Shown one piece after another: positions 7,904 through 62,976 of a stretch of DNA of 64,000 bases. Origin of the DNA: Candidatus Methanomethylophilaceae archaeon (lineage in GTDB: Archaea > Thermoplasmatota > Thermoplasmata > Methanomassiliicoccales > Methanomethylophilaceae); assembly GCA_944320495.1 (NCBI GenBank), contig CALUHR010000008.1:42249-106248 (forward strand), in the 5' to 3' direction. Below the pieces are notes generated by a model. The model had not been told where the DNA came from. It worked only from the letters and a program-made list of their open reading frames with translations, and ran no database searches. A program made the position numbers and the translations under genes. The number at the start of each line of letters is the position of its first letter. Within the stretch, counting starts at the first letter, position 1.

Positions 7904-9193
7904 ATGGGGGATCTCATGGTGACGGGCACGGCATTCTTCGAAGCGGCCGCCGCCTACAACGATGCACCGGTGAAGAGCGGATTGTGCTCCATATGCAAGG
8001 GCGCCCACAGGCTGTGCGGCAAGGACCGCTGCCCCCTGATGATCAAGTTCTACTCGCAGCAGAAGACCCGGCCGCTCATAGACGCCAAGGACCTGGCCGG
8101 CTCAAGCCCACCGTCCGTCTTCGTGGGACGCTACGGATACCCGAAGGTGGACATCGGACCCCTGGTCCCGCCGGAGTTCGGTGACACCTCCGTAATGGGG
8201 AGACCTGAGATGTGGGTCGGGAAGTCGATAGACGAGATCGTCGACATGCGCTTCCGCCTGGTGAGGGGGAAGTACCGCATCGACGCCACCGACTTCGCGA
8301 AGTACGGGCGCATGGTGGACGCGGTCCAGGAGGTGGCGCTGACCGAGCGCCCCATAGACATAGAGACCACCTTCTCCCAGAAGCCCCGCGGCAGGGTCGT
8401 CCTGGACGATGACATCGAGCCCTTCGGTCCTTCGGCCAGGATGGAGGCCATGTCCATAGGCAACGGGAGGTTCGAGAGGAACCTGGAGAGGTCGTTCTAC
8501 GACACCGACATGCGCGCCGTGGACGCCGTGGTGTCGGCGTACAGGGGAGGGACCCTGATCTCCGAGATCCAGAAGGCCTTCTCTGTTGGAACGATGGGGA
8601 CCGGCAAGCGCAGGCGCTTCGTCCCCACCAGATGGAGCATCACCGCCGTCGACGACATCATAGGCAAGGACCTGCTGAAGACCACCAGGTGGAACCCGAC
8701 CATCGACGACTTCAGGCTCTACCTCTGGGAGGAGCTGGACAACAGGTGGGCCATCCTCCTGATGCCCTGCACCTGGAGGTTCGAGCTCATAGAGGCGTGG
8801 TATCCCAACACCACCTGGAACCCCACCGGGAAGACCATAGACGTCATCCACGACAGCGAGTTCTTCGACGGCAGGACGGAGTACGCCCACATCGGAGGAT
8901 GCTACTACGCGTCAAGGATGGCGGTCAACGAGCTGCTCATTAAAGAGGGGAGGACCGCAGGTGCCGTCATCATGAGGGAGGCCCATCCCGGATACGTTAT
9001 GCCCGTCGGGGTCTGGAACGTCAGGGAGAACGTCCGCGCCGCTCTGAAGACGGAGCCCCTCCATTTCGAGACCTACGACCAGGCGATGACCCGTGTGGAG
9101 CAGATGATGGACATCAAGCGCGACGGATGGATCGCCAACTCCGACGTGATGAGGGACTGGCTCGTCCAGAGGAGGATTGAGGACTATTACCGA
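7904..9193 (+). CDS. nreA: NreA-type DNA repair protein with C-terminal PIP box, ends at CGA
   Basis: Archaeal NreA family protein, known from Haloferax to act with the nucleotide excision pathway through PCNA. The N-terminus has the four-cysteine zinc motif (GLCSICKGAHRLCGKDRC) and the long conserved NreA core follows. Residues 422-429 (9167-9190) are QRRIEDYY, a PCNA-interacting PIP box, which in this family closes the protein. The next codon is CGA at 9191-9193. With CGA as arginine the frame stays open to 10225 and adds about 344 residues of Arg/Pro-rich nonsense across the radical SAM gene. I therefore end it at CGA, giving 429 aa. ATG at 7916 is an alternative start. Confidence 0.9.
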
Positions 9194-9980
9194 CACGACC
9201 CTCGGCGACTTCTCCGGAGAGAGGCTGGAATGGGACGGTCCTTTCCGGATAGTGGAGTGCGGCAGGGCGCTGTCCCCATCCGGGCTGGACGAGATGGACT
9301 ACGCCCTGAACCCCTACGGGGGATGCGAGCACGGCTGCATCTACTGCTACGCCCCGGGACACACCCATTCGGATCTCGCGGGATGGAGGGTCGTCCGCGT
9401 CAAGAGGAACGTGATCGACAGGCTGTCCAGGGAGCTGCCCTTCGCGGACGGTATAATCGGCATAGGCACGGTCACCGATCCGTACCAGGCCGCAGAGGGC
9501 AGGTTCCGCCTGACCAGGGGATGCCTGGAGGTCCTGGCCTCGAGGGGCCGGAGGATCCACATCCACACCAAATCGGACCTCGTCCTCCGCGACATCGACA
9601 TCCTGTCGGGGATGGACTGCGTCGTCGGGATCACGTTCACCGGCGTCGATCCGAGGGTCTCGAAGATGACCGAGCCAGGCGCCCCGCTGCCCGAGGCGAG
9701 GCTCCGGGCGATCACCGGCCTCTTGGACGGCGGGGTGCGGACGTACGCCCTGGTCGCCCCCACCATGTCGACCGCCGAGGGGCACGAGGCGGAGATCATC
9801 GATGCCCTCCGTTCCACGGGGGTCCGCCGCGTATACGTGGAACCCCTCAACCTCAGGCTTGTGGACACCACGCGTCTCGACAGGATGGGCATAACCCCGT
9901 CCCCCAAGGCTGTCGCGGAGATGGCCAGACTCTGCCGCGAGGCTGGCATCCTGGGCATGGGCGTGGTTCGTCGATATTGA
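9177..9980 (+). CDS. Radical SAM protein, SplB-like/COG1533 type
   Basis: Iron-sulfur enzyme that reductively cleaves S-adenosylmethionine; the substrate is unknown. The CX3CX2C motif is in GGCEHGCIYCYA (about residues 49-60), preceded by the family's YALNPY. The start taken is TTG at 9177, inside the PIP box of nreA; a GTG near 9253 is possible. The codons before the TGA read CGT CGA TAT TGA, so CGA (9972-9974) occurs one codon before the end. Overlap with nreA suggests co-transcription. Confidence 0.85.
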   Translation: MRTITDTTLGDFSGERLEWDGPFRIVECGRALSPSGLDEMDYALNPYGGCEHGCIYCYAPGHTHSDLAGWRVVRVKRNVIDRLSRELPFADGIIGIGTVTDPYQAAEGRFRLTRGCLEVLASRGRRIHIHTKSDLVLRDIDILSGMDCVVGITFTGVDPRVSKMTEPGAPLPEARLRAITGLLDGGVRTYALVAPTMSTAEGHEAEIIDALRSTGVRRVYVEPLNLRLVDTTRLDRMGITPSPKAVAEMARLCREAGILGMGVVRRY

Positions 9981-10067
9981 GAACCATTATGAATCGCGAT
10001 CGTTTCAATCAGACATCTGGGAATTGCGCCATTGCCTTCAGATTGCGAGGGTCGGAAGGGTTCCTCG

Positions 10068-10337
10068 ATGGACTGGAGAACGGCGATGGAGTTCGTGGGC
10101 GCCACTTACGAACTGATCATCCTGTGCTTCGCCTATGGTTCCCCGAACCACTCCGCCCAGTGTGCCAGAGGGGATTGGGCTGTTGCACGGCCAGATCTCC
10201 ATGGTCTCCATGTACTACATGTTGAGGACGATCAAACCCTGCTGTTCTTCAAGATCTCTGACCATCTCGGCAGGAATCCGGCCACCGTAAAGATCCCCCG
10301 GTCTCGATATACGGGTGTTTCGCCCCAAGAGGTGTAA
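10068..10337 (+). pseudogene. Possible decayed small gene, unidentified
   Basis: From ATG at 10068 one frame reads MDWRTAMEFVGATYELIILC and then loses coherence. A neighbouring frame carries a helical-looking stretch (GLLHGQISMVSMYY, about 10180-10220), and the first frame looks coding again near 10230-10290. This alternation suggests a frameshifted small protein, perhaps a regulator, but no family is recognised. The rest of 9981-10373 shows nothing else. Confidence 0.25.
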
Positions 10338-10373
10338 GAAGGGAACGACCGACAGATCGCCGCCGGCCAGTTT

Positions 10374-10741
10374 TCAGTGTATGCGATCAATCCTCGAGAC
10401 GATCTTCCACTCGCCGTTTTTACAGGCATTTCCGTGAAGGGCGGAGCATTCATCTCTACATTGTAATGCGCGCGAACGCGGCCGAGCCCTCGATTTCAAG
10501 GACATCAATGCACGTCATCGCATCGGGAACCGCCCAGGTCTTGTCCACCGAGTCGAAGAGAGATTGCATGAATCCCCGGCAAGCTCCCCGTTCACGTAGC
10601 CTCAAAACCGCCTCCTGGTCAAACGTTTTCCCGAGGAGGGTGGTGTCACAGCCCCTTCATCCGTCGGAGTAAAATCTGCATTGCCTTCACGACTTCCTCG
10701 AAGTCCGATATCTTGTCCGAATCCATCACCTTCGTATCCAT
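10374..10741 (-). pseudogene. Frameshifted NTF2/lumazine-binding-like gene
   Basis: Remnant of a small NTF2-fold protein like the intact gene at 12069-12455. It starts at ATG 10741 with MDTKVMDSDKISDFEEVV. A shift of frame after about residue 30 continues as LLGKTFDQEAVLRL, MQSLFDSVDK and IDVLEIEGSAAFARITM. A further break is followed by NGEWKIVSRIDRIH and TGA at 10374-10376. At least two frame changes and an in-frame TAG lie between the blocks. It is directly downstream of a flavodoxin, mirroring the NTF2-flavodoxin pair upstream, so it is probably the decayed half of a duplicated module. Confidence 0.7.
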
Positions 10742-10790: not shown

Positions 10791-11423
10791 TCGTTCGCTT
10801 GGCGGCATGATGAAGTGCGTCCAGAGGTGGGGCTCATAGACGGGCTTCTCGGTTCCCGCCATCCTTCCGGCGTTGATGCACTTCAGGAGCCACGCCATGT
10901 TCTGGGCGAGCGTGCGCATGGTCTGCAGCCCCTCCTCGTCCCTGCGGACGTCTTCGGGGGTGAAGCCATGGACCTGGTTCCAGTATTGTGATGGGACCAG
11001 CGGCATGTTGCAGATCGTGAAGTACTTGTTCAGGCGGTCGAAGGCCGCGGAAGCCCCGCCCCTGCGGCAGGACACGACAGATGCTCCGAGCTTGCCGGCC
11101 ATCCTCGCCGCATTGGAATAGAAGAACCTGTCCGCGAATGCGCAGACCTGACCAGACGGGCCAGCGTAGTACACAGGCGAGCCCAGAACGATTGCGTCGA
11201 ACTCGTCCAGCCTCTCCGCCAGGACGTTGACGTCGTCCTTGATCGAGCACCTGCCCTTCTTGGCGCAGTATCCGCAGTCCCTGCATCCAGCGGTGTCGTT
11301 CTTGATGTGATAAATCTCCGACTCGACGCCCTCCTTGGTGAGTGTTTCCGCAATCTCCTTCAGGGCGGTGTAGGTGCAGCCGTGCTCCTTGGGGCTGCCG
11401 TTGATAAGTAGAACCTTTGCCAT
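10791..11423 (-). CDS. NADPH-dependent FMN reductase / iron-sulfur flavoprotein, ends at CGA
   Basis: Flavodoxin-fold redox protein of about 210 aa. MAKVLLINGSPKEHG at the start is the FMN phosphate loop, CRDCGYCAKKGRC (about residues 46-58) is a cysteine cluster for an Fe-S centre, and GSPVYYAGPSG is the second flavin loop. The codons after THFIMPPSE are CGA (10791-10793). Reading through adds about 63 residues of unrelated sequence that run into the NTF2 remnant, whose ATG is 50 bases further on. The start chosen matches the family and lies just 3' of an unneeded upstream extension. Confidence 0.85.
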
Positions 11424-17061: not shown

Positions 17062-17835
17062 ATGCGCGCAGCGCTATACGCCAGGGTCTCGACGGACGAC
17101 CAGGCGGTCGAGGGTTTCTCGCTCGACGCCCAGGTCAAGCGCCTCGAGGCCTATTGCAGGGTCCGCGGCTGGGAGGTCGGCGGGATCTACAGGGACGAGG
17201 GGTTCTCCGGCAGGAACACCAAGCGTCCGGAGTACGAGAGGATGATGCGCGAGTCCGACTCGTGGGACGTCCTCCTCGTTCTGAAGATGGACCGTATCCA
17301 CAGGAACAGCGTCAACTTCGCCCGCATGATGGACGACCTGCGCGACATGGGCAAGGAGTTCAACTCGGTCCAGGAGAAGTTCGACACCACCACCGCCATG
17401 GGACGGTTCGTCATGGACATCATGCAGAGGATCGCCCAGCTGGAGAGCGAGCAGATCGGCGAGAGGACGTTCATGGGCATGGAGTTCAAGGCCCGCAACG
17501 GCACCGGAAACCTCGGCTCCGGCCACCCGTACGGATACGTGTACACCGAGCACGGCCTGGAGGTCGTGAAGGATGAGGCGCATACGGTGCGCGCGATCTA
17601 CAACATGTACGTAAGGGGCTCCACCATGGAGGACATCGCCGGATTCCTCAACAGCGCCGAGATCCCCGCCAAGAAGGGCGGCAAGTGGAACAGGCAGTCC
17701 GTCTGCAACATCCTCCACAACCCGCTCTACGTGGGATACTCGGAGTGGAACGGCATCCTGCGCAAGGGCGAGCAGCAGCCCATCGTCGAGATGGCGGTCT
17801 TCGAGAAGGTCAACGGGCCGTTGGAGATCCAGCGA
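17062..17835 (+). CDS. Serine site-specific recombinase 1, ends at CGA overlapping the next ATG
   Basis: 257 aa. The N-terminal resolvase domain begins MRAALYARVSTDDQ with catalytic Ser10, and a recombinase domain follows (NRQSVCNILHNPLYVGY near residue 213). It lacks the long zinc-ribbon/coiled-coil tail of phage large serine integrases. The last coherent codons give NGPLEIQ, then CGA (17833-17835), which overlaps the ATG of recombinase 2 as CGATG; a TGA follows six codons later. A TATA candidate (TTTATAAC, about 17020) is upstream. Confidence 0.9.
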
Positions 17836-20355: not shown

Positions 20356-20957
20356 CGACGGTCCTCCGCGAGTTCAGGGAGGGGGACTGCAAACCCATAT
20401 CCGCGATAATGTGCGACGTCTGGTCCATGGTGAGCTACGGCGCCGATGTCGCCATGCCCGGGTCGAGGATGTACTGCTGCCAATGCGTCCTCGGGTCGTC
20501 GTTCATCCGTGTGGCCGAGGTCGACGGGAGGATCGTCGGATGCGTCGGGGCCAGATACGGGAACGAGAGGGTCGATGCACCCTGGGCCGAGAGGATGCTG
20601 CGGCAAGAGAGGGATTCCTTGGCGAACTCCGAGGACGGGATGCGGATGATCGCCGAGTTCGAGTCCTACGATTCCATAGACAGGGACCTCGGCATCAGTA
20701 CCGAGATCGACACCGATGCGGAGCTCACCATACTCATCCTTTCCGAGGGTTGCAGGGGACTCGGACTGGGCAGGATGATGTTCAACGCCGCCTGCGATTA
20801 CCTTCGCTCCAAGGGCGCCGGGAGCATGATGCTGTACACCGACACCGACTGCAACACAGGGTTCTACGATGCCCTCGGCGCAGAGCGCGTGGCAACCTCA
20901 GGAATGATGTGCCTGGGGGAGCCGCTCGGAATGTTCCTTTACAGATATCCGCTGCGA
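20352..20957 (+). CDS. GNAT-family N-acetyltransferase, ends at CGA
   Basis: 201 aa starting at GTG 20352, which overlaps the SDR stop. The acetyl-CoA loop is CRGLGLGRMMFN (about residues 135-146), with the usual helix YLRSKGAGSMMLY after it and GFYDALGAE near the end. Coherent sequence ends FLYRYPL and the next codon is CGA (20955-20957), seven bases from the convergent reductase end. Read through, the frame runs to 21131 antisense to that gene's ferredoxin domain. Confidence 0.85.
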
Positions 20958-20961: not shown

Positions 20962-22053
20962 TCATCGGAATCCGAACAGAGCCTTCGCATTGTCGACATG
21001 CTCCTCCGCATCGAGATGGAACGGACACCTCGAGGTGCACCTGCCACAGTGCAGACAGTCGGAAGCGTGCTTCGACAGAGCCCTGTAGTGCTCCCAGGCC
21101 ATCTCGTCGCCAACGGCGAACAAGTCGCTGAACTTGTTGACCTTCCCGATGTCGATGCCTGCGGGGCACGGGAGGCAGTGGTTACAGTAGACGCACTGGT
21201 CCTACATGTCCGCCGCCGTCAGGCCGCCGATGAACGAGTAGTCCCTCTCCTCCCTAGAAGCGTCTAGGTACGAGAGCATAGCCTCGAGCTGTCCGACTGA
21301 GCCTATTCCCGGGACCACGGACACTGCCCCGGGGCGGTCCAGCGCGTACTGAATGCACTGCGCCGGGGTCATCGCCCTCCCGAACGGGGAGGTCTCGGCA
21401 TCCATCAAGATGCCTCCCCCATAGGGCTTCATCACGACTATCCCGATCCCCCTGCGCTCGCAGTCGCGGTAGAGCTCCAGCCTCTCGGGGTCCATCACGA
21501 GGCCGTTGTCCCCGGCCACGAAGTCATAGGTGGGATTGAGGCTGAGCATGAAGTCGTCGACAACCGTTTCCTCGATGAAGCGCCTGCATATCTCTGGGGT
21601 GTGAGACGTGAACCCGATGTTGTCCACGCGCCCCTCGTCCTTCCATTCGACCAGCATGTCGTACAGCCCATCGGACATGATGCGCTCGTAGTCCTGGGCC
21701 TCGTCGACGCAGTGGAAGAGCAGCAGGTCGGCGTGATCGAGACCGTACTTCCTCAGCTCGGTCTCGAAGGACTCGCGGCACTCCTCGGGGTCCCTCGTGG
21801 CCGCGTACTGACCTCCTGGGTAGTGTACGCCGGTCTGCAGCTGGAACACCATCCCGTCTCCGTGCTCCCTGACGGCCTCCCTGATGGCGGGAGCGCAGGG
21901 GTCGTCATACATGGAGGTCTCCATGAAGTTGACGCCTGCGTCCATAGCCTTCGATACGATGGTGTGGACATCGTCACCCGCATCCCTGAGGAAGCCAGAT
22001 CCAAGACCCAGTGCGCTGATCCTTTTACCGCTACGAAGTCTCCTGTACTCCAT
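20962..22053 (-). CDS. Aldo/keto reductase with ferredoxin domain and an in-frame UAG codon
   Basis: Paralogue of the gene at 15882. From ATG 22053 (AGGTG upstream) it reads MEYRRLRSGKRISALGLGSG through the reductase barrel. Codon 284 (21202-21204) is TAG, and the same frame goes straight on with DQCVYCNHCLPC and CLHCGRCTSRCPF, the two Fe-S clusters, to FGF CGA TGA. The aligned region of the paralogue reads DVSGRC against DM-TAG-DQC. Conservation of both cysteine clusters after the TAG argues for readthrough, possibly pyrrolysine, over a dead gene. Without readthrough the protein lacks its ferredoxin domain. Confidence 0.85.
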
Positions 22054-23818: not shown

Positions 23819-24988
23819 GTGTCGGAGGGACGTTTTCAGCTCATGCAAGGGGACCACCGGGTCGCAGAGGTGTGCATCTCCGACAACGGCATTATGACGG
23901 AGCTACGTGAGATGTTCGATCCGGAGAGGATGCCCTGGGGGACCATTGGCACCGACCCCGGCGATACCATCAGAAGGCTCGGAGAATGGTGGGGATATCG
24001 CTGCATCCCGAGGAAGAGGAACATCCAGGACGCACTGGGTCGCCTCGGATTCAGCTCGAGCGAGGCGCTCATGACCGCTGGCCTGGCGGTCAACATGACG
24101 GACCGCTACTGGATCCGCCCGAACGGGAGCGGCCTGTCGTGGGACGATGTCAGCCCCCACACCAACGACTTCTCCGAGACGCTGGGCAGGACGCTGCTCG
24201 GTAAGGGGGACGGGTTCGAACCGTCTCCGGACTGCGCCACCGACGGGATGGTCCCGAAGATGTGGACATCGGAACGTCGCCTGCTCAAAGGCGGGACGAC
24301 CCGCTGCAGGCAGCAGCCGTACAACGAGGTCCTGGCCTCGGAGGTCATGAGACGCCTCGACGTGGAGCACGTCGATTACGATCTGAGGCGCATCGACGGG
24401 AAGGTTGTCAGCTCGTGCCCGTGCATCACCTCAGAAGGGGTGGAGATGATACAGGCCAGATGTCTGATGATGACCCGCCCGATGGACAGGTCTAAATCCA
24501 TCTACCACCACCTCATGGAGAGATGCGGGAGCATAGGCCTCGTGGACCCGAAGGACTTCGTAGACAGGATGCTCGTCGTCGATCACATCATGGCGAACAA
24601 CGACCGGCACTACAACAACTTCTCCATCCTCAGGGACCCGGAGTCGCTAGAGGTCCTCGGCTTCGCCCCCATATACGACACGGGCTCGTCCCTGGGCTAC
24701 GACCTCCGGGTCGGGGACATCTCTGGATCGGAGACGAGGGGCAGGACGTTCAAGGCACGTCTCGACGACCAGTTGCTGCTCCTCGGGGACACGGACTGGA
24801 TCGATCTGGACGCTCTCGAGGGGATCGACTCCTTCGCCCGTCGTCTGATGGGAGGCTCGGAAACGGTCTCGCCCGAGAGGGTGGAAGCGGTCGTAGAGCT
24901 CCTGCTGTCCCGTATCGAGTCGCTGAGGGACCGCATCGAGAATCCACGCGGATTCCGCGACGAGCCGTCCGAGGACATACCGGTCCGA
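23819..24988 (+). CDS. HipA-like Ser/Thr kinase, second orphan copy, ends at CGA
   Basis: 389 aa from GTG 23819, aligning along its whole length with the gene at 22167. The catalytic stretch is VDHIMANNDRHYNNFSILRD and the metal loop YDTGSSLG. Coherent sequence ends SEDIPV, then CGA (24986-24988); the length then matches the paralogue. Reading on would add 45 residues encoded by AT-rich, non-coding-looking DNA to the TAA at 25123. No HipB partner. Confidence 0.82.
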
Positions 24989-28567: not shown

Positions 28568-30277
28568 TCGGTCGATCCGTGGAGGGAACAGGATCTTCAC
28601 GGTGTCCCCGTCGGTGGTTATGCCCTCCGATACCTCTACACGCAGCATCCTACCGTCGGGATGCTGGACTATGTCACCATCCGATAAGTCCTCGTCTGCC
28701 GCCAGGATGTGGTAGAGCAGGTCGTTCATGAACGTCAGGAGCGTATCGGGTCTGTCGCGGCATCCCACCGTCTCTACCTCGAGCTTGCCGAACAAGTGTA
28801 GCCCGCAGGTGTAGGACCTGACCTCACCATCGCGGTGGGACAGCCCCACCCAGACCCAGTCCCCAATCGGAAGGGCGCCGTCCCTGATGGACTCGGCTTC
28901 ACGGACGTAGTCGTCAGCGCTGATGACTGCACCGGGGATGTACACCCCGATGGTGCCGGGCTGCCTGCAAACGGCCGAGACGATCTTGGTGTGCAGGGTG
29001 GCGGCCGCGATGCAGTCGCTGCCGTGATTCACCAGGGCGACCATGATGTGGGCCCTGTGCTGCCCGACCCTGTCGCGGGCATCGGGCCAGCGGTAGTTGT
29101 TGAGGGCGTTCTCCTCCGCCTCCCCGTCGGGGACGGGTCCGGAGGTCTTGCTGATGATGACCAGGTCCCCGTCGCATTCGAACGTGAGGTTGGACCCGTC
29201 CGTGCTGAAACGGCAGCGTATGCCCCATTGGGACACGAGGTCGAACTGTATCCTGTCCGGATCCCACGCGTCCTCCTCCAGTAGGACCATGGCGATGAAC
29301 GGGCCACCCCTGTCGCGTGGGACATCGAGGGACATCCTCTCGTCGAACGATGCTATGACGGGCTCCTGTCCCCCGTACCCGGCGAAGCTCAGGAACGACC
29401 TGAGTCCGCGGTCTACGCTGACGGCATACAGCGGCCTCCCCTCCACCCTCCTGCCGAGAGCGGCGCGGGCGGCGTCCTCCATGTCGGGGATGGCGTCGAT
29501 GATGCGCCTGATGTCCTGCACCGGGATCTTGGACAGGTACGCCTCGTTCATCATGAGGGTCACGAACACCGACCCCCCGGGGAGGTCCATCACGTAGGTG
29601 CAGTATGGATGGTCGGCGATCCAACCGGCGGGGCGGAGGGCTTCCTTGACCTCGCGGAGCCCTTCCGGGTCGACCATAATGCCCTTGACGGCCTCGACGG
29701 CGGTCCGATCCGGGGAATCCTCCCCGGGCTGGCGGGACTCCATCTCCTCGATGGTCCTGCATGCCTCGATGTCACCCATCAGAGCGGTGAAGTCCGGATC
29801 CGCCGGAACGAGATCGAGGCCCCTCCTGGCGGCGGAGAGGGCCTTGGAGCGGTCCCCGTAGTGGCAGTAGAGCCTTCCGAGGGTCAGCCAGTTCCAGGGA
29901 TAGGAGGGTTCCTCGTCGGTACCGCGGAGGAGATACTCCATGGCGAGACGCGGCCTCCCGCAGTACATGAGGGCGTTGGCGTACCTGTAGAACCACACGC
30001 CACAGCCGCGGGCCAGGTCCTCCACGTCGGAGAGCCACTGGAGGGAGGTCCTGAAGTGCTCATAGTCTCCGATGTTGTTGCAGGCGTAGGCGATCATGAG
30101 CGCCACATCAAGGTCATGATGGGCCTGCCTCTCGGTGAACCTGCCCTCCGACACGCCGACTGCTATGATGCGGCCGATGCAGTCGAGCATGCCTTCGAAA
30201 TCTCCGGACGAATCGTCCTCGTAGGACTGTATCTCTCTGAAGTCCTCCGGACGGAGGACTCCTCCGAGATCGTTCAT
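28568..30277 (-). CDS. TPR-like plus DUF4261 protein, ends at CGA
   Basis: 569 aa. The N-terminal 170 residues are helical repeats (RQAHHDLDVALMIAYACNNIGDY, FYRYANALMYCGRP). The same module recurs near the C-terminus of the 1233-aa protein at 48025. The C-terminal half (about 315-540) matches DUF4261, for example SLDVPRDRGGPFIAMVLLEE and HIMVALVNHGSD. DUF4261 also occurs among predicted immunity proteins of polymorphic toxin systems. The frame reads FPPRID then CGA (28570-28568), then six codons to TAG. No toxin gene is visible nearby. Confidence 0.75.
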
Positions 30278-41803: not shown

Positions 41804-42688
41804 ATGTTCGCGGACGCCTGTGGCAAGGTCTCGGAGTTCTCCAGACCTGTGGTCATCTCGACTAGGCATCAGGACGGCACCATCAAGACCGAATGCGGCA
41901 CGTTCATCGTCCTCAACCGGGACGGCTGGATAATCACCGCCGGCCACATGTACGACTCCTATGTGAAGTACCAGGGGGACCGCAAGAAGGCCGAGGAGAT
42001 CGAGGAGCTCAACGCCGCCCGCAGCTCCAGGCCCGGTGCCCCGTCGCAGCCGGTGAAGCTCGATCCCGGCATGATAACGAACCACTCCTTCTGGTGGGGC
42101 TGGGACGGCGTCCGCATCACCAACGTCTACGTCAACAGGCAGCTGGACATGGCCGTGGGAAGGCTGGAGCCCTTCGACCCCGAATGGGTCCGTGAGTATC
42201 CGGTCCTCAGGGACCCGGACCATCTCCGCCCGGGCACCAGCGTGTGCAGGTCCGGATACCCGTTCGTCAACATCACCGCGTCCTGGGACGACGCGACCTC
42301 CTCGTTCAGGATACCCAAGATCCCGATCAGGGACCTGATATTCCCCAACGAGGGCATACACACGCGGACCGTCGACCGCGGCAGGACCAGGGACGGCGAC
42401 TTCCGCATGCTCTACGTGGAGACGTCGTCGCCCGGGCTCAAAGGCCAGTCGGGGGGCCCCATCTTCGACAGGGAGGGGAGGATCTACGCGATGCAGGTGC
42501 AGACCATGCACATGCCCCTCGGCTTCCATCCCACCGTCGAGTACGACGGCAAGACCGTCGTGGAGAACCAGTTCATGAACGTCGGCCTCGGGGTCCATGT
42601 GGCCACCATCAGGGACGTCCTCGACAGCCGCGGCGTGAGATACGACGCCGAGGAGGACGCCGGGGGATACAGGATCGTGGGCCGATGA
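41804..42688 (+). CDS. Trypsin-like serine protease
   Basis: 294 aa with a chymotrypsin-fold triad: His in IITAGHMYD (about residue 48), Asp in RQLDMAVGRL (about 112), Ser in LKGQSGGPIFD (about 213). No signal peptide, so it probably acts in the cytosol. The last codons are GGC CGA TGA; the CGA (42683-42685) shares its A with the ATG of the next gene, again CGATG. The downstream membrane protein is co-translated. Confidence 0.85.
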   Translation: MFADACGKVSEFSRPVVISTRHQDGTIKTECGTFIVLNRDGWIITAGHMYDSYVKYQGDRKKAEEIEELNAARSSRPGAPSQPVKLDPGMITNHSFWWGWDGVRITNVYVNRQLDMAVGRLEPFDPEWVREYPVLRDPDHLRPGTSVCRSGYPFVNITASWDDATSSFRIPKIPIRDLIFPNEGIHTRTVDRGRTRDGDFRMLYVETSSPGLKGQSGGPIFDREGRIYAMQVQTMHMPLGFHPTVEYDGKTVVENQFMNVGLGVHVATIRDVLDSRGVRYDAEEDAGGYRIVGR

Positions 42689-43215: not shown

Positions 43216-43518
43216 ATGGACGACTCCGATATCGAGCGTCTCTCGTTGATCGGAAAGGCGCTCTCAGATCCCAGCAGGATCCGCATACTCCTCAACTTCA
43301 GGGGAAGGACCCTCTCGATCTCCACGATGACGGAAGAGCTGGAGACATACCAGTCCAATCTCTCGTACCACATGTCCATCCTGGTGAAGGCGGGTCTAGT
43401 CACCCGTGTCGACACAGGCAAGTGGCACTATTACGCCGTTGACCCCGAGACCCTCGAGCTGGCTCGCAGGTTCATCACCCAGTGCTCCAAGCGCCCCCGC
43501 TCCCGCAGGCAGGAGCGA
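43216..43518 (+). CDS. ArsR-type winged-helix regulator, ends at CGA
   Basis: 100 aa: ALSDPSRIRILLNF (residues 14-27), then the recognition helix region YQSNLSYHMSILVKAGLV and the wing GKWHYYAVD, a minimal ArsR fold with no cysteine metal site evident. Coherent sequence ends RSRRQE then CGA (43516-43518); a T-rich stretch follows before the XPD start. Reading on would overlap XPD by over 200 bases in another frame. TTTAAATC upstream fits a leaderless promoter. Confidence 0.83.
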
Positions 43519-43558: not shown

Positions 43559-45637
43559 ATGATGGGAATGTTCTGCCCCAGATGTCATGCCCTCGTGTCC
43601 CCGACGGATGCGAGATGCCGCTCCTGCGGCGCACCCCTGGACAGCCTGGTGGAGAGCAACCAGTCGGTCCTGGACGGCGTCGCCGAGAGGCCGAGGAGGG
43701 CGGAACCCGAGGTCACCGAGGTGAAGGGCGCCCCGTACATGCCATACGAGCCGCGCGGATGCCAGATGGACATCATCACGGACATGGTTAAGGCCCTTGA
43801 CTCCGGGAGGCACTTCGTCATGGAGTCGGGCACCGGCACCGGCAAGACCATCGTGTCGCTGGCCGCATGCCTCGACCACGCCTCCCGCACGGGAAAGACC
43901 ATCGTCTACCTCACCAGGACCATCTCTCAGAGCGACCAGGTGATGAGGGAGCTCCGCGCCATCTCCAGGATCAGGCCCGTATCGGGCATCACGATCACCG
44001 GCAGGGGGAAGTCCTGCCCGCTCTTCAGGGGCCTGAAGGACTTCGACTCCATTCCGTCGAACGTCCTCTCGATGATGTGCAACGACGCCCGCGAGAAGAG
44101 CCGCCACGGGAAGGCGGGGGGATGCAGGTACTTCGACCGCGTGGAGATGTCCCTGCCGCAGATCGAGTCATACGTCAGGACGAGGTTCCCCACCTCCGAC
44201 GAGCTGGACGAGTACTGCATCAGGATGCAGGTCTGCCCCTACGAGGCCAAGAAGGCGCTCATGAAGGGTTCTGAGGTGGTGGCCGCACCTTACGTCCACA
44301 TCCTCGACCCGGACATCAGGGACAGCCTCATGACCAACCTAGACAGGCCCGGGGACCCGAGATCCCTGCTCATCATCGTGGACGAGGCCCACAACCTCGT
44401 CGACGCGGCGAGGGAGAGCGAGACGTTCAGGATCGACCGCGCCCTCGTAGACGCCGCCGTGGACGAATGCTCCACGTTCTCCCACCAGCCGGAGGTCGGG
44501 GACAGGATACTCCTCTCCGAGTTCCTCGGGACCCTGAAGAGGGCCATTCGCGCCGCCGCGATCGAGCTCATCCCCATGGGAAAGGACACCGTCGCCATCC
44601 GGGACGACCGCATCGAGAGGACCATCATGGACAAGTTCGGACTGTCCCCGTCCGAGCTCCAGGTGGCCATCGAGGACGCCATAGACCTCGGCGAGGCCAG
44701 GACCGACAAGCTCCTCGACAGCGGGGAGAACCGCGTCTCCGACATACAGGAGGTCGCGGTGGCCCTGAAGTCATGGTGCGGAGCGGACTCCAAGCGCTTC
44801 GTCCGCACCATCCACGCCGACCGCGAGGGGGAGTTCCTCCGCGCGTACTGCATCGATCCCAAAGAGATCTCGATGTTCCTCAACTCCACATCGGGGACCG
44901 TCCACATGTCTGGGACGCTGCATCCCATGGACCAGTACGCGAGGGTCATCGGACTCTCGAGCAACTGCACGTTCCGCAGGTACCCATCCCCTTTCCCGCC
45001 GGAGAACCGCCTGGTGGTCTACACGCCCCATCTCACCACCAGATGGCAGGACCTCAAGGCCAATCCGGACATGAGGGCGAGGCTGGAGAGGACCATAGCG
45101 GACCTGTGCAACTCCGTCGACAAGAACACGCTCGTGTTCTTCACATCCTATGCCAGCATGCAGTCCATGCGCGGATACCTGGAGGAGCACATCCACAAAC
45201 GCCTCTACTGGGAGCAGTCTAGGAACAACCGCGCCAACGCCTCCGCGCTGTCGTCCTTCAGGGCGAGACGCGACGGGGTGCTCTTCTGCGTCATGGGCGG
45301 CAAGTTCGCCGAGGGCATAGACTTCCCCGGCGAGGAGCTGTGCTTCGCCGTGATCGTCGGCATCCCCTATCCCCCGCCGTCACCCGACCTGGACGCCATG
45401 TCGGACATGTTCGAGTCGCGCTACGGACAGGGCAAGGGTTTCGCCTACACGTCGTCCATCCCCGCCCAGAGGAAGCTCAAGCAGGCCATCGGGCGCCTCA
45501 TCAGGACGGAGACCGACCGCGGGATGGCCGTCATCCTCGACAGCCGCGCGTCCAGGTTCGCCAAGGACCTCGATGCGAGACCGTCGGACGACCCGGTGGG
45601 CGAGGCCGCCAGGTTCTTCCGCCGAGAGCGTGTCTAA
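43559..45637 (+). CDS. xpd: XPD/Rad3-type DNA helicase with N-terminal zinc ribbon
   Basis: About 690 aa from ATG 43559. Residues 6-23 are a zinc ribbon (CPRCHALVSPTDARCRSC) not usual in archaeal XPD. The motor follows: Walker A ESGTGTGKT near residue 88, four FeS-type cysteines (GKSCPL, MMCNDA, GGCRYF, QVCPYE), DEAH in IIVDEAHNLVD, and motif VI KLKQAIGRLIR near the end. 5'-3' DNA repair helicase. The final codons are CGC CGA GAG CGT GTC TAA, so CGA (45623-45625) comes three codons before the TAA, after ARFFR. Confidence 0.92.
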   Translation: MMGMFCPRCHALVSPTDARCRSCGAPLDSLVESNQSVLDGVAERPRRAEPEVTEVKGAPYMPYEPRGCQMDIITDMVKALDSGRHFVMESGTGTGKTIVSLAACLDHASRTGKTIVYLTRTISQSDQVMRELRAISRIRPVSGITITGRGKSCPLFRGLKDFDSIPSNVLSMMCNDAREKSRHGKAGGCRYFDRVEMSLPQIESYVRTRFPTSDELDEYCIRMQVCPYEAKKALMKGSEVVAAPYVHILDPDIRDSLMTNLDRPGDPRSLLIIVDEAHNLVDAARESETFRIDRALVDAAVDECSTFSHQPEVGDRILLSEFLGTLKRAIRAAAIELIPMGKDTVAIRDDRIERTIMDKFGLSPSELQVAIEDAIDLGEARTDKLLDSGENRVSDIQEVAVALKSWCGADSKRFVRTIHADREGEFLRAYCIDPKEISMFLNSTSGTVHMSGTLHPMDQYARVIGLSSNCTFRRYPSPFPPENRLVVYTPHLTTRWQDLKANPDMRARLERTIADLCNSVDKNTLVFFTSYASMQSMRGYLEEHIHKRLYWEQSRNNRANASALSSFRARRDGVLFCVMGGKFAEGIDFPGEELCFAVIVGIPYPPPSPDLDAMSDMFESRYGQGKGFAYTSSIPAQRKLKQAIGRLIRTETDRGMAVILDSRASRFAKDLDARPSDDPVGEAARFFRRERV

Positions 45638-48024: not shown

Positions 48025-51000
48025 TCGAACCTCCGGCAGCCAGTCCCCGCCGAGCCTCACGTCCTCGACCCTGCCGTTGAGATTCCTGTAGGTGAGCGTC
48101 ACCCCCATGCCCCCGTCCACGGTCACCGTGGTCAGGACACCGGCGCGGTTGGACATCGGGTCCCTCTCGCGCATGAGGACGGCCAGGGAGGACCATCTTC
48201 CCGACATCGCCCTGTCGCGGATCCCCGCGAGCCGCGACGGGTCCATCTTCGATACCGCGGCGATGTTCGTCTCGAACACCATCGAGACCCTCCCTCCGCG
48301 GGTGTCGAGGTCGAAGCAACAGTACGGGCCGTCCTCCTCCCAGGTCCCGTCCACAGGCTCGAACATCCCGCGGAAACGCTCCGCACCCTCTGGGTCCGTC
48401 AGGATGCAGTCGATGGTCCTGAGCTTGCCGTCGCTCGCCGGGTCGTCACCGGCCTGGAGGACCGCGTCCGCTCCGGGGTCGATCCAATGGAACTCGAAGC
48501 GGTCGAGATCGTATCCCGCCTCGATCTCCGAGGCGAGGGTCTCGAACTCGTAGTCGCCGGGCACCAGCTCCAGCCCCCTGCGGACCGCGTCCATCGCCGC
48601 AACCCTGTCGCCGAAGTGGGCGCGCAGCTTGGCGACCTGCAGCCACACCCATGGATAGCACGGCTCCTCGACGGCCCCCCTCTCGGCGTATACCAGCGCC
48701 TCCTCGAGGCGACCGCAGTACATCAGGGCGCAGGAGTAGCGGTAGAACCATGTCCCGCAACCCGATGCCGCGGATTCCGACGAGGGCATCCACCGTGCAG
48801 CGCGCCAGTAGTGGACGTAGTCCCCGATGTTCAGGCAGGCGTAGGAGAACCAAAGCGCCACGTCCAGGTCCCTCTCGACTTGTCTCGAGCTGAACCTCCC
48901 CGACCTTATCCCGTCGTTGAGGGTTTCTACCAGGTCACCGAGCATCGCGTGATACCGCCCGTCGATCTCCCCCTCATAGGAGGAGAGGCGCTCGACGTCC
49001 TCCTGCGACAGGATGGGCTCCGCGGGATCCTCGGGAACGGTGCGGTCCATGACCCTGACCGAAGGGCAGTCCCTGCGGAAGCTGTGGAAGCTGGCCCATG
49101 CCAGGTCAGTCCCCTCGAAGAAGCGGGATGCGGCGGAGAGCGTGCGCTCCAGGTCCCAGGCCATGAGGTCGATGTATCCGTACCGGGTCCCGGTTGCTCC
49201 TCCGATGATGCGTACGGAGTCCTCGCCCGCCTCGGCGACGATGGCTTCGGATGCCGCGTCGCGGAAGCGGAGGATGTCCCCGGAGCGGTCTTCCCCGGCG
49301 AAGCCGTCGAGCGGGAATATCAGGAACCCCGCCACGGCGCCGTCGGCGTGGAGCATGTCCGCCGAGGCGTCCTCGCAGGAGATGTAGCTCCCCACGAGCT
49401 TGGCGCAGGAGGTGACGCCGACGACCACGTCGGCCCTCCAGTCCGCCTCTGGATCCTCCACGGGGTCGGACCTGTAGACCCTGCTGACGTTCAGGTACGA
49501 GTCGGCGTCGATCTCCATGTTGAAGCCCATGTCGATGAGACGGTCCCTGAGCTCCGACAGGCGGACGGTGTCCCCCTCCGGGGCCTTGCCGACCACGTCG
49601 ATGCCGTCCAGGACCGACATGGCGGGGACCTCGCCGATGACCCTCTCCATCAGGTTGGCTACCATCCATCCCACATCGTCGGGTTCGGTGGAATATAGGC
49701 TGTCCAGCTTCCCGCAGTGCATCGTGAGCCTGACGAAGTCGCCGCTCCTCTCGATGGATACGTCCACGTCCTCAGGCGCTATCCTCACGCCGTCATGCTC
49801 GATCTCCATGCCGATGCCGGGAGGCCGGCCGGCGGTCACTCCCCATCTCCTCAGCACGTCCTCGGGCGCGCGCCTGATGAACTCGGAGATCTCGAACAGC
49901 CTCACCCTGTCCGCCTCCGGGGTCAGGATGAGATGGAACCTCTCGCCGTCATGACCGATCTCGAAGGCGACATCCCCGAACGTGATATCCAGTATCCCAT
50001 CGACCAGACCGATCAGTTCGCCCTCGACGACGGCACGGTCGGGATGGGCCAGGAGCCTCTCGATCTCGTCCATCTCCTCGGCGAACCTCCTCCATGTGAG
50101 CTCAGCGCGCTCGCGGAAGCATCTGTGGAAGCGGGGGTGCGCCAAACCGTTCAGACAGGATCCCAGCATCTCCCCCGCATCCGGATCGGTCTCGGCTGCC
50201 TTGGCGAAGTACGGAATCGCCTCCGGCTCCCTGTCCATCATGTAGTACGAGTATCCCATGCGGTAGTTCCAGAGCGGATCGTCCGACTTGGCTTCCCGGA
50301 TGGATTCGAGGATGGCTATGGCCTTGCGGAAGGGCTCAGGATCGTCCGGTCCGCCGATGTTGTTGTACGCCCTGGCGAGGATCCCGTACAGGTCGGGGGT
50401 CCTCTCGGACTCGGGCAGAGCCTCGATCGCCTCTATGATCCTCTTGTGGAGGCCCTCGACGTGCCAGCTCTCCAGCTGCTCCATCAGCGGGGATTGGTCT
50501 GCACCGGGGGAGGCGTCGCCGCCCGATGCCGCATCCCATGCGGGATCGTCCATCACCTCCTCGACGGAGATGTCCATGCGGTAGAACGAGAGCATGTCGG
50601 AGAACGTCTCCCTGATGGAATCGACATCGGACCCCGTCATCCGGTAGCCCAGCTCGTCCTGGAGCTTCAGCACGCTTCCGGCCCTGGACCTCAGCTGGTC
50701 GATCATCTCCTGGCGGGACCAACCGCCCGTCGGTATCCAGAAGCTGAGGCCCCTGAAGATGTGCTGCGTACGCCTGAGGAAGTCCTCCGGGACCGATCCC
50801 CCGTCGGCCATCGCCCTGCAGAAGACGTATTCTTTCGGGAAAGGGCGCTCGTCTTGGAACGGCCAGAGGTCGGCCTCGGGCACCTCGGCGGACGCCTCTT
50901 TCTGGATGCCGTCCTCGGTGACGGGCTCATCGAGACGGACGATCCTCCTTATCAGGAACCTTCCGGGGATCTCACCGTCCGGGCCGGTCTTTATCGGATT

Positions 51001-53038: not shown

Positions 53039-54486
53039 ACCTGGAGGAGCTCGAGGCGGCCTACGGGTACGGCGGGTCGCGCGAAGAGGTCATGAGGGTC
53101 GTCAGAAAGATAGACCCGTCAGAGACGGCGCCGCACGGAGTCACCGCCTTGCACATCGCCGCCCGCCAGGTCGACCCCGAGACGATGGAGGCCCTCCTGG
53201 ATAGGGGATTCCGTGCCGGCGCCACCGACGAGTACGGCAACACCCCGCTGCATATCCTCGCGGTGCAGAGATGGGACGGCCGCGTGTCGAAGATGGCCGA
53301 ATGCACTGACCTCCTGCTGACCCACCGCTGCCCTCCGTCGAGGAGGGACGATCGCGGGAGGTGCTTCTATCACATAGCAGCGCAGATGCACAACCTGCCG
53401 ATGATTTCCGTCATCGGCCAGAGAATGGTGCGCTGCGACGCCCTCCTCGAGGACTCGGGGATGAACGCCCTGCACGTGCTGTGCGATTCGGCATCGAGCT
53501 ACGACTACATCCGCGAGAGCAGACCCGAGGAGTTCGAGGAGAAGGACCGCATGTGCCGCCGCATGGCCGAATGGCTGGTCGGATGCGGCATCGATCCGGA
53601 GGCGGAGACCAGGATCGGCAGGAAGGCCATCGACTTCGCCGTCGGGAACAGGATCAAGCTGACCTCCTCTTTCCTCGCCGGGAACGACGATGCTGTCTCG
53701 GGAGGCATGGACCTCCACCAGGCCGTAACAGTGGACGATGCGGAAGCCATCTCGGCGATACTCTCGGCCGGAGCCGACCCCGATGCGCTCTGCGACAGAC
53801 CGGGCGACTATCTCGGGATGACCCCGCTGATGGTGGCCTGCCGGAGGATGGCCAGGGAATCGGCGGAATCGCTTATCCGTGGAGGAGCATCCGCGTCCTA
53901 TGCGGACGGCCGCGACGGCAGGACCGCCCTCTACCATCTCCTGAGGGCCCTCTCCTCGACGGTGGGGACGGGAAGCAACGCCAGGGACTCGGGCAGCTTC
54001 CTCTCCATGCTGAGGATGGTCGCGGAGGCCCAGGGCACGCCGGATCTCCCGGTGAGCGATGAGGAAGGTCCCGCGCTCTGCTTCCTGGCGGGGAACGACA
54101 GGCTGGGACACACCTCGGACGGGAGGTCCGTGAGGAGCATCGCCTTCGAGACCCTCGCTTCCATGGGCGCGGATGTCGATGCCAGGGACAGCCACGGCCG
54201 CACGCCTCTGATGCTCGCTTGCGGGATCCCGGGGCCGGAATCGGAGGGCATCGTGTCCACCCTGATGGAGCTCGGGGCGGATTGCGACGCCCGCGACGGG
54301 GACGGCACCACCGCCCTCATGAGGGCGGCATCCATCCCGGGGAACGCGGGCATCGACCTCATCAGGGCGATGCTGGACTTCTGCGTGCCCGACCCAGGAC
54401 TGAGGGATTCGAAGGGCAGGGACGCGCTGGAGATGGCATCGGACGCCGGCAACGCCGACGTCGTCCGCCTTCTCCTCTCCCTGCGA
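53035..54486 (+). CDS. Ankyrin-repeat protein, ends at CGA
   Basis: 483 aa with degenerate and regular ankyrin repeats (GVTALHIAARQVDPETMEAL near residue 35, GMTPLMVACRRMARESAESL near 262, GRTPLMLACGIPGPES near 385, GRDALEMASDAGNADVVRLL at the end). The last repeat stops at LLLSL then CGA (54484-54486), 21 bases before the convergent ankyrin gene ends. As arginine, the frame runs on 49 codons antisense to that gene and stops at TAG. Confidence 0.87.
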
Positions 54487-57198: not shown

Positions 57199-57807
57199 TC
57201 GTCTCTGCACAGCATCCACCCTCAGGCCCGAGACCAGTTCGACGAGACGGTCCACCTGGATGTCGATGGCCTCATCCACGGCCTCCCCGTAGAGGAACGG
57301 CAGCGAATGCTTGCCCGTCCGTCCTATCCAGACGATCGACATCAGCATGTTATAGAACACACGGGGATCGAGACGGCTGACCGGGACGCCGAGCAGATTG
57401 AGGACCTCGGCGAAGAGCACGATGCGGTCGTTCTTGAATCCGGCGAACTCCTCGTCGCTCAGCAGCGTCCTGATGTACGTCTGGTCGTCGAAAGTGGCGA
57501 TGAACCATCTGCCGGACAGCAGATCGTCCAGGGTGGTCCTCAGACCGTTGTCCGCGCCGTAGTTCCAGACGTTGGTTCTGAAGCATCCGAGCATGTCCTC
57601 CGACTGGAGGTGGAACATCTCGATTATCAGGGCGGCTTTCGACGGGAAGAACGAGTAGAAGAACGTCTTCGAGATCCCTTCGGGAAGATAGATGTCCTCA
57701 AGGCTGGTCTCCCTGAGACCCTTCTCGGCGAAGACCTCTGCGGAACGCCTCAGCATATTCATGCGGATGGCGTCGCGTTCCTCCGCAGTGTACGCCTTCC
57801 TGGACAT
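57199..57807 (-). CDS. TetR-family regulator, ends at CGA
   Basis: 202 aa, a normal TetR length. N-terminal helix-turn-helix: AEVFAEKGLRETSLEDIY (about residues 23-40) and ISKTFFYSFFPSKAALIIEM. C-terminal ligand domain unassigned. Coherent sequence ends GLRVDAVQR then CGA (57201-57199); with arginine it runs 42 more codons into the ankyrin gene. The ankyrin ribosome site starts within ten bases. It probably controls this operon. Confidence 0.88.
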
Positions 57808-59143: not shown

Positions 59144-59150
59144 TTGTTTG

Positions 59151-60755: not shown

Positions 60756-60929
60756 GCTCAGATGTAGCTCTCACGGTTAAAATGGGTTTCCCAGCATCCG
60801 AACGCGATTCCGGCGGTAAACGACCGAATCGTTCAATACACCGACGACAATCGGGCTTGCGGGATCTTCCGGATGATGAGGAACCGAGGCTGACCCGTGA
60901 TGAGCCCTATGAGTCCTGACGGGGTCCCA

Positions 60930-61466
60930 TCGCTGCTGCGAATAGTCCGACATACCGGTGTACCCCATGAAATCGGACAGCTTCATCCCGTTCTCCCATC
61001 TCATGATGTAGTACCCGCTGTCCGAGACCTCCAGCTTGGGCAGCCTGCGGTACAGCACGCTGTGCCTTCCCCTGTAGGCGTGGTCCGTGGGTATGGTGAA
61101 CAGACGCCACGGGTCTCCGCGCTGGGACTTCAGCCGGAAGGCGTAGATCGGGACGAGATGCGAGCGGCAGCAGTCAGCGAGCATGATGTCGGCCTGCTCC
61201 GTGAGATGCTGGTTCTTGCTGAAGTGGAGGACGCTGTCCCCGGAGCTCTTCACCTCGATGGGGAACGAGAAGTCCCATCTGAGAGCCACCAGGTCCACTC
61301 CAAGGGATCCGGCGGCGCGGATGACCATGAACGGGTCCGTGAGCATCGTCTGGTAGTTCGCCTTCTCCATGGCATCGCAGGTCTTCACCATCTTAGCTAT
61401 GGCCTTCTGGTCGCCCGTGAGGAGGGACTTCAGCTCGCGCTCGTAGACGTCGCCCGGTGGTGCCAT
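60930..61466 (-). CDS. Hjc-like Holliday junction resolvase family nuclease, ends at CGA
   Basis: 178 aa. PDDEXK fold signs: YERELKSLL (Glu near residue 10), GVDLVALRWDF (Asp near 58), FPIEVKSS (Glu-x-Lys near 71). Resolvases of this family cut four-way junctions, although longer than archaeal Hjc (about 130 aa), so substrate is uncertain. Coherent sequence ends MSDYSQQ then CGA (60932-60930); reading on adds 50 residues of low-quality sequence to TAA. Confidence 0.75.
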
Positions 61467-61656
61467 GATGGTTGTCGATTCCCGATGCCATATTTAAAGA
61501 GAACAAGGGGGGTGCAGCGAAAACCCCCCTCCCTGGCGATCAAGAGATGATCTTGACAATCCTTTATCTCCCGATGTCAGATATCGTACCGAGGGATGCA
61601 TGGATGATCGGAACCACCGTCACATTCGCAAAGATGCACACTGGAGGGAGGCTCCG

Positions 61657-62280
61657 ATGCCGACCTGCCCCAAGTGCGGAGCCTACAACCCGGACAGTTA
61701 CGAGTTCTGCTCCAGATGCGGCGAGATGATGTCGCCCGTCGAGATGGGCGCACCCGTCTCCAGGAGATACGCCGCGGACCGTCCCGCTCTGCGCTACCTG
61801 CTCATAGTCCTGCAGATAGTCCCGTGCGTGCTGGGACTCTACCTGCTGTTCGGCACGAGGCTCGACATCACCGGCTTCTACGGATTCTTCTCCGATACGA
61901 TGTCCATAATGGAGATCCTCGACCAGGGCTGGTACCCCACCAGCATCTCCGCGTCCGGATTCACCATCATCTTCTGGATATCCGCCATACTCTTCATCGT
62001 GGGCCTCTCCGTCCCGGTGTTCCACATATTCGGATACGTCATGACCCTCGGAATGGCCATGGGCATGTCGGAGATGTACGTGTTCGGCTCCGACTCCATC
62101 ATCATAGTCGGGGCGGATGTCGGCGGCATGGAGATCCTGGCGGTCCTCGGCCTGCTCATGGGGATCGCGGCGCTGCTCCTGTGGTTCGCCGTCGTCGTGC
62201 GCGGACCCTGCGCCAGCATGCCCCTGAAGCTGAGGCTCGCATACGTGTGGACCGGCAGGGTCGGTGAGAGGGAGAGGCGA
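61657..62280 (+). CDS. Zinc-ribbon membrane protein, ends at CGA
   Basis: 207 aa from ATG 61657, preceded by GGAGGGAG. Zinc ribbon MPTCPKCGAYNPDSYEFCSR at the start, then about four membrane helices (LLIVLQIVPCVLGLYLLF, IIFWISAILFIVGLSV and others). Ends GERER then CGA (62278-62280), which abuts the CGA of the convergent hydrolase as CGATCG. As arginine both genes run on through each other. Function unknown. Confidence 0.78.
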
Positions 62281-62976
62281 TCGCCTCGAGGACCTGTCCA
62301 CGACCCTGATGCTGTCCACATCGACCCCGCAGTCCCTGAAGATGGGATCCACGATGCGGGTGCTGTGGGCGATGTAGCTGGAGTGGTCGGCGCGCTTCAT
62401 GATGCAGAGACGACCGTCCTGGACGGATCCTGCTATGAGCTCGGTGTCCTCCCTGCGGATGCAGTCCCTGCTTCCGGCTATGACCGTCACAGGGCACGTG
62501 ATGCGCGCCAGGTCCTCCGGACGGATGTCCGGCTCGGTGAGCATCATGCGGACCAGAGGCTCGTCCCCGTGGAGCAGCCTCGTGAGGGTCATGCCCTTTA
62601 TCATCGAGGGGCGGGTGTTCGCCCCGCAGACGAAGAGCCTCGAGGGAACATCGGGGTGCTCCATCGCGAACAGTAGTGCCACGATGCCGCCGTCGCTGAA
62701 CCCGCATATGATGGGGTCCTCGATCCCGAGCTTGCGGATGAAGTCGTGGAGGTCGTCCGCCATGTCGGCGTAGTGGTACTCCCCGTCGAGCGGCGGGGAG
62801 CTCTGACCCTGGCCGCGGGAGTCCACCAGATACACCGTGAACGCCTGCTCCAGATAGTCGACGGCGCGGTCGAAGATCGTATGGTCCTCGCCGTTGCCGT
62901 GGAGCATAATCAGCGCCGGACCCTTCTTCCCGCGGACCTCGTAGTAGATGGACACGCCGTTGGTTGTTACCCTCAT
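62281..62976 (-). CDS. Alpha/beta hydrolase, ends at CGA
   Basis: 231 aa. MLHGNGEDHTIF is the oxyanion region near residue 24, CGFSDGGIVALL (about 92) the nucleophile elbow with Ser, and a final catalytic His in MKRADHSSYI (about 197). Ester or thioester hydrolase of unknown substrate. Coherent sequence ends VVDRSSR then CGA (62283-62281). Read through, the frame runs to 61564 antisense. TAATTATC upstream is a TATA candidate. Confidence 0.87.

Follow-up and report, generated by a model that had tools for sequence, protein, structure and literature searches.

How do genes end in an archaeon in which the arginine codon CGA is nearly absent within genes and recurs at gene ends, often with no ordinary stop in sight? 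The question is raised by a 64,000-nucleotide stretch of DNA (the window; contig 8, positions 42249-106248, G000:C8:42249-106248) from a draft genome of 14 contigs and 1,768,794 bases at 90.6% completeness. An earlier note on the window had proposed that CGA is a termination signal here, by reassignment, by loss of the tRNA that reads it, or by C-to-U editing to UGA. From sequence comparison we find it very likely that CGA does end translation in this genome: because it is all but missing inside genes and stands at about one quarter of sampled gene ends, CGA is likely a fourth stop codon. The ends of orthologues, full-length family models, the interchange of TGA and CGA, and recurrence in separate lineages all speak for termination. 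The genome is of the Methanomethylophilaceae type. Over 410 residues its release factor aRF1 matches that of an uncultured Methanomassiliicoccales metagenome-assembled genome (L033) at every position, and it is 82-89% identical to those of metagenome-assembled genomes labelled Methanomethylophilaceae or Methanomassiliicoccaceae. We refer to this genome as G000, to the comparison genomes as G001-G057 and to loci by L numbers; L033 and G008, a congener, are counted once because the coordinates of their matches coincide, and they are not independent in the CAA comparison below.

Genes were called with a purpose-written finder of seven states (six frames and non-coding) that gives TAA, TAG, TGA and CGA no weight, on a sample of 535,848 of the 1,768,794 bases (30% of the genome, the window included). 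CGA occurs inside genes at 0.23 per 1000 codons (125,822 interior codons), compared with 27.7 per 1000 when every frame of the sample is counted, so that its near absence, first seen by eye, is real; TGA, at 0.29 per 1000, marks the noise level of the finder, and CGA is equally rare. This interior exclusion is accompanied by 107 of 432 ends at which CGA comes first, against 295 with a standard stop first and 30 with neither. CGA is thereby the second commonest of the resolved end codons (TGA 275, CGA 107, TAA 17, TAG 3), and 52 of the 107 CGA-first ends have no standard stop between 20 codons upstream and 30 codons downstream of the model end. The congener G014 has CGA first at 18 of 342 ends, two of them without a standard stop (Fisher p 1.7e-14 versus this genome). 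Ends with no standard stop were also scanned codon by codon; CGA lies within 12 codons at 51 of 66, but the scan was set aside as not specific to CGA, since coding-favoured codons rank equally high.

Within the window, the finder delimits 49 coding segments: 23 reach CGA first, 19 a standard stop, and 7 have neither in reach (CGA 23, TGA 18, TAA 1, none 7). Fourteen of the 23 lack a standard stop in the next 15 codons. One CGA end, 17097-17099, was discarded, its model having overrun a TGA at 16983-16985, which leaves 22 ends. Of these, 13 meet no standard stop for 15 codons, and 9 meet one at most 12 codons on, in two cases directly after the CGA. The earlier note had counted about 25 CGA ends among 56 genes, about 15 of them without a nearby stop; the pattern holds, and the count itself becomes 23 of 49, or 22 after the rejection.

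Could CGA still be arginine, merely shunned, with genes running to the next standard stop, or with the gene finder or the assembly in error? The 9 of 22 window cases with a standard stop close by would permit it, as would the clade-wide occurrence of some codon shunning without CGA stops. Yet the run-on tails past CGA, which can reach hundreds of codons, are densely set with CGA, carry no coding signal and are absent from the orthologues compared below, and draft genomes produced by separate projects show the pattern too. We consider this explanation highly improbable.

Where, then, do the same genes end in relatives? For the orthologue comparison, genes were cut at their first stop-like codon and matched at an identity of at least 40% and a coverage of at least 60%, after removal of segments that contained an in-frame stop. 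Over ten genomes, 59 of 77 CGA ends fall within 5 residues of the end of an orthologue with a standard stop and 68 of 77 within 15; among standard-ended controls over twelve genomes, 221 of 237 fall within 5. For this genome alone the figures within 5 residues are 14/17 for CGA and 60/66 for standard stops. A second comparison took no account of CGA: from nine non-user genomes, 543 C-termini were placed on each genome and the next codon was read, "users" being those genomes with a sizeable CGA-first share of gene ends. At the 77 sites found in this genome, the next codon is TGA in 41, CGA in 11, TAG in 2 and any of the 60 other codons in 23 (at most 2 each). CGA was read at 8/17 sites in G035, 5/16 in G047, 3/14 in G001, 3/17 in G040 and 2/56 in G008, compared with 2/209 in nine other, non-user genomes together; it was found at none of the sites in G041 (0/3) or G018 (0/19).

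Family models run out at CGA as well. In the window, NCBIfam TIGR03904 covers a YgiQ-family protein with model positions 1-557 of 558 on residues 2-558 of 562 (729 bits, cut-off 462), four residues before CGA, and Pfam Nre_C is matched through to its end (110/110), which falls on residue 428 of the 429 in the NreA-like protein, one residue before CGA. For the other eight window proteins, the Pfam and NCBIfam matches are too partial to fix an end. Ten further CGA-ended genes of the genome include HxlB (175/178) and an archaeal riboflavin reductase (208/210), both matched nearly to the end; of the others, three match no family and the rest are less exact. In G035, models end at most 3 residues from CGA in aRF1 (403/403), ArgS (569/569), UbiX (181/181), adenylate kinase (211/212), UMP kinase (221/222), PheS (323/324) and pelota (350/351), the next standard stop lying 23 to 182 codons past the CGA. 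In G047, pelota (350/351) and the carbamoyl-phosphate synthase (CPS) small subunit (360/361) end within 5 residues of CGA, and PurM (331/332) within 16. Pelota can be followed across the genus and G047: among 28 resolved genomes it ends in CGA in 5, all users, and in TGA or TAA in 23, the users G001, G037 and G039 among the latter. In G035, the arginyl-tRNA synthetase gene lies directly after that of aRF1 (L211, 13727-16755, minus strand), and both end in CGA.

CGA also trades places with TGA. Of 43 ends aligned with G008 (median identity 95.4%), 28 are TGA in both genomes, 7 CGA in both, 2 TAA and 1 TAG, while 4 are swapped (3 TGA/CGA, 1 CGA/TGA); one further end pairs CGA with CGG, which does not fit an exchange of stops. 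Where convergent genes abut with zero bases between their end codons (11 pairs), CGA faces TGA in 7, CGA in 3, and TGA faces TGA in 1. The window holds three such junctions, CGATCG at 62278-62283 and TGATCG at 36723-36728 and 39087-39092. Downstream, the +4 base is T after 66 of 106 CGA stops (A in 3) compared with 79 of 255 TGA stops (p 4.6e-8), and T still follows 53 of 93 once abutting ends are removed; in G008, T follows 29 of 42. We rejected T at +4 as a general trait of CGA stops, as it is confined to this genome and G008, the other users (in small samples) lacking the bias.

This context bears on whether the mRNA might be edited, the C of a gene-end CGA becoming U so that the ribosome meets an ordinary UGA. 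CGA does differ from UGA by exactly the base that would be edited, and the T at +4 is the kind of flanking preference that editing could leave. But the other users sampled do not share the preference, no upstream motif was found at CGA ends, and a change at the ends alone would leave interior CGA unpurged. No editing enzyme was identified, a search for DYW domains having returned no control match and thus being uninformative. Editing strikes us as quite improbable, if less so than a merely shunned arginine codon. The genome does encode two proteins of the cytidine-deaminase fold, at C13:272784-273140 and C1:76385-76609.

How widely is CGA used in this way? CGA-first shares are 107/432 here, 43/194 in G008, 13/47 in G001, 8/32 in G037, 10/40 in G040, 19/60 in G047, 6/30 in G039 and 21/50 in G035, the heaviest user found. 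Lower shares occur in G018 (6/85), G014 (18/342), G003 (0/33), G015 (0/37), G031 (1/32), G033 (0/31), G005 (2/33), G036 (0/18), G038 (0/18) and G016 (1/11), while G009 (4/35), G004 (11/39, two of them lacking a standard stop), G041 (6/34) and several small samples were classed as neither user nor non-user. CGA is excluded from gene interiors in non-users too. In a quick tree built from 40 aRF1 rows, users form four separate groups and need five gains or losses, four of them forced by well-supported branches, gains and losses not being separated; a single clade of users is rejected on this tree (approximately unbiased test, p-AU 1.6e-74).

Exclusion of CGA even from non-users raises the possibility that the codon has simply been vacated: the ribosome would stall for want of a tRNA that reads CGA well, and aRF1, itself unchanged, would in time terminate by default at a near match to UGA. 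In the genus, tRNA-Arg(UCG) looks degraded, which would suit this. Relatives were searched with a model of this genome's tRNA, and loop positions were judged by eye. Of 31 genus genomes, 19 carry a mismatch between positions 31 and 39, 5 show C instead of the near-universal U33 (L278-L281, from G009, G033, G034 and G003, and L277, from G032), and in 7, G035 included, the best match is only tRNA-Arg(GCG), no tRNA-Arg(UCG) being found; these absences are provisional because the assemblies are 61-99% complete. The four-base-pair anticodon stem that results from the mismatch was ruled out as a peculiarity of this genome, since users and non-users among the 19 share it alike. Against a vacated codon stands the user G047, outside the genus, which has a tRNA-Arg(UCG) whose 31-39 pair can form (as it can in G051 and G053-G057, likewise outside the genus). 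The tRNA-Arg(UCG) gene is moreover identical here and in G008, as if kept, and CAA is depleted in the clade although this genome has a tRNA-Gln(UUG). We judge default termination at a vacated codon unlikely, though it is the most credible of the alternatives. Outright tRNA loss, one of the options in the earlier note, is not borne out and was ruled out as the cause in this genome: ARAGORN finds a tRNA-Arg(UCG) gene at C13:413317, and simple loss is disfavoured because that gene is still present.

Reading of CGA by the release factor fits best. Aligned with human eRF1, the aRF1 of this genome has Ser28 at Gly31, Lys60 at Lys63 and Met65 at Arg68. Position 68 is Met or Leu throughout the clade, and Arg, Lys, Asn or Gln in outgroups. 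In simulations, the penalty that eRF1 sets on CAA, CAG and CGA is about 6 kcal/mol, and that of the Arg68Ala variant only 1-2, so that loss of Arg68 is predicted to weaken the rejection of C at the first position (PMC5681627). Since this predicted loss of penalty covers first-position C, CAA should be shunned as well, and we compared codon use accordingly in 57 of 70 sets (48 with Met or Leu at position 68, 9 with Arg, Lys or Asn), 13 having been dropped for low GC content at third codon positions or stop noise. CGA makes up 7.2 per 1000 arginine codons in the Met/Leu sets and 33.3 in the outgroup sets (p 1.2e-4), and the log-odds of CAA relative to AAA and GAA is -1.39 in the former and -0.04 in the latter (p 8.6e-5), both p values ignoring kinship. 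CAA does not serve as a stop here: the leading other codons listed for the projected C-termini do not include it, and its enrichment near gene ends is weak.

Other positions differ more locally. Ser at Gly31 occurs, among the rows listed, only here and in L033/G008; Arg replaces Lys63 in G001/L037 and in L094, and G035 has Asn-His after Met68. The recognition motifs of eRF1 include the GTS loop (PMC5681627), in which the Ser of this aRF1 sits, and we would guess that this Ser is tied to the T at +4.

The following course of events could connect these data. The aRF1 of the clade's ancestor would have lost the arginine that braces the NIKS loop (Arg68 of human eRF1, Met here), weakening the rejection of C at the first position. 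CGA, one transition from UGA, would then have risked premature termination and been purged from genes, CAA less completely, and tRNA-Arg(UCG) might have decayed or disappeared in many species. T-to-C transitions at TGA stops would thereby have become nearly neutral, letting CGA accumulate as a stop in some lineages, in a few of which further aRF1 changes, such as Ser at Gly31 here, may have helped. That aRF1 reads CGA much like UGA, eased by Met68, seems to us probable. The wider proposal goes further: CGA as a genuine fourth stop of a cellular archaeal genome, second most used, made possible when the clade as a whole lost the aRF1 residue that keeps C from being accepted at the first base, a step that would also have made CAA costly, and captured in four groups, so that one family would hold shunned, intermediate and captured stages. 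On balance we lean towards this proposal, with less confidence than towards the reading by aRF1 itself.

Several results pull the other way. The looser first pass over orthologues brought only 21 of 39 CGA ends within 5 residues, compared with 79 of 96 TGA ends; seven were shorter by more than 20 residues, partly through locus edges and model overruns. One CGA in the window, 48025..48027, is not an exact end, its best homologue in G014 running 252 residues longer. The projection met no CGA in G037 (0/13), G039 (0/22) or G004 (0/14) and few in G008, and G037, G039 and G004 are consequently less certain as users than the gene finder suggests. L110 (Arg, -1.47, kept) and the R- and Q-type outgroup loci L108 and L104 (filtered out) look poor in CAA, the low-GC Met68 loci L066, L075 and L089 (filtered out) do not, and the weak near-end enrichment of CAA belongs here as well. 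The tRNA-Arg(UCG) gene is present in most users as in this genome. Met68 is a single event on the tree, common to non-users and to species that still use some CGA. We found no user-specific aRF1 mutation in the motifs compared, no change there being common to all users and G037, G039, G040 and L065 having none. Reassignment, as first proposed, is partly supported: release-factor reading accounts best for the data, but the aRF1 change behind it is clade-wide and not specific to users. Inspection of the factor, likewise suggested at the outset, yielded Met or Leu at Arg68 across the clade, Ser at Gly31 here and Arg at Lys63 in G001.

Finally, we would like to place CGA termination into the context of known changes of the genetic code. 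Our literature search, which covered openly licensed papers and few preprints, found no archaeon, bacterium or nuclear genome in which CGA or any other sense codon is reported as a stop, in agreement with the statement in the earlier note that no such code was known. To judge from the literature searched, CGA would be the first codon for an amino acid to have become a stop in the main genome of a cell. Sense-to-stop changes are described in mitochondria: AGA and AGG in vertebrates, UCA and UCG in Sphaeropleales, and UUR in some green algae (PMC6821328, PMC12574857). As here, those accounts describe an amino-acid codon that is absent from gene interiors, stands at homologous gene ends and is tied to release-factor changes (PMC6821328, PMC12574857). 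Unlike here, these are organelle genomes with few genes, whereas ours is a cellular genome of 1.77 Mb. The mitochondrial cases use bacterial-type release factors, and aRF1 belongs to an unrelated class. A sense-to-stop change is likewise described, in 2025, for UUA and UCA in peDinoflagellate plastids, given by its authors as the first known case outside mitochondria; it differs in the plastid setting, in the codons and in the RF2-type factor proposed (PMC12574857).

Closer in codon are the reassignments of CGA/CGG and of AGG that Codetta found in bacteria: rare arginine codons, CGA included, change meaning there too, but they become amino acids, in low-GC bacteria (PMC8629427). A screen of this type would miss a CGA stop, because Codetta, as described, cannot detect sense-to-stop changes (PMC9825746). 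Closer in kinship is pyrrolysine at UAG in Methanomassiliicoccales, the same order, where the use of stop-type codons is also altered (PMC4153887) and to which the PylS encoded in this genome relates; its direction is opposite, from stop to sense, with a dedicated tRNA. If CGA termination is true, the sense-to-stop step would be open to large genomes, as shown by a cell in which one sampled gene in four ends with an arginine codon. Neighbouring species that stand at different stages, together with a concrete aRF1 residue, would make codon capture and the fidelity of first-base U recognition directly testable, and public gene calls for such genomes would carry wrong C-terminal tails and fusions.

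The 22 window ends illustrate the range of cases. Among the 13 without a nearby standard stop, the NreA-like gene (from 7904) ends at 9191..9193 (+), the next in-frame standard stop lying 343 codons on; for the others we give the same distance after each end. A FMN-reductase-like gene ends at 10791..10793 (-; 62 codons), a GNAT acetyltransferase-like gene at 20955..20957 (+; 57), with Pfam Acetyltransf_1 matched to 115/116 at residue 204 of 229, a HipA-like gene at 24986..24988 (+; 44), its HipA_C match below the Pfam cut-off, and the YgiQ-family radical SAM gene at 34424..34426 (+; 53). Two ends abut a convergent TGA: that of a Sel1-repeat-like gene (repeat type by eye) at 36726..36728 (-; 301), against TGA 36723-36725, and that of a helicase-like gene with an in-frame TAG upstream at 39090..39092 (-; 194), against TGA 39087-39089. 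An ArsR-family gene of 100 codons (NCBIfam NF033788, 66 bits, cut-off 55) ends at 43516..43518 (+; 90), and an ankyrin-repeat-like gene at 54484..54486 (+; 49), its G014 orthologue (69.9% identity) stopping 1 residue further. A TetR-family gene with Pfam TetR_N (from 57807, 202 codons) ends at 57199..57201 (-; 41), and one distant orthologue (25.9% identity) ends 23 residues before that CGA. An unnamed gene ends at 60930..60932 (-; 50), and a membrane-protein-like gene at 62278..62280 (+; 131) and an alpha/beta-hydrolase-like gene (partial Pfam Abhydrolase_1) at 62281..62283 (-; 238) form the two halves of CGATCG.

The nine with a stop close by comprise a radical SAM gene with CGA one codon before TGA at 9972..9974 (+), where a stop and a last arginine are indistinguishable; a CGA at 17833..17835 (+) that overlaps the start of the next recombinase gene, TGA following 6 codons on; 28568..28570 (-), 6 codons before TAG, the G014 orthologue ending 11 residues further; 30386..30388 (-), 10 codons before TAA, the G014 orthologue ending 1 residue before; a Sel1-like gene with CGA 12 codons before TGA at 35993..35995 (+); a Rad3/DinG-like helicase with CGA 3 codons before TAA at 45623..45625 (+); and the long repeat-rich gene at 48025..48027 (-), 9 codons before TAA. 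In the remaining two, an aldo/keto-reductase-like gene at 20965..20967 (-) and 42683..42685 (+), TGA follows directly. Such a CGA directly ahead of a standard stop occurs in 10 of 277 standard-ended genes of the sample and resembles tandem stops.

The window also holds two in-frame TAG codons inside genes that carry on in the same frame. One, 21202-21204 (-), lies within the aldo/keto-reductase-like gene, whose paralogue at 15882-16985 aligns across it by eye; the other, 40161-40163 (-), lies within the helicase-like gene. With PylS encoded in the genome, both are candidate pyrrolysine sites.

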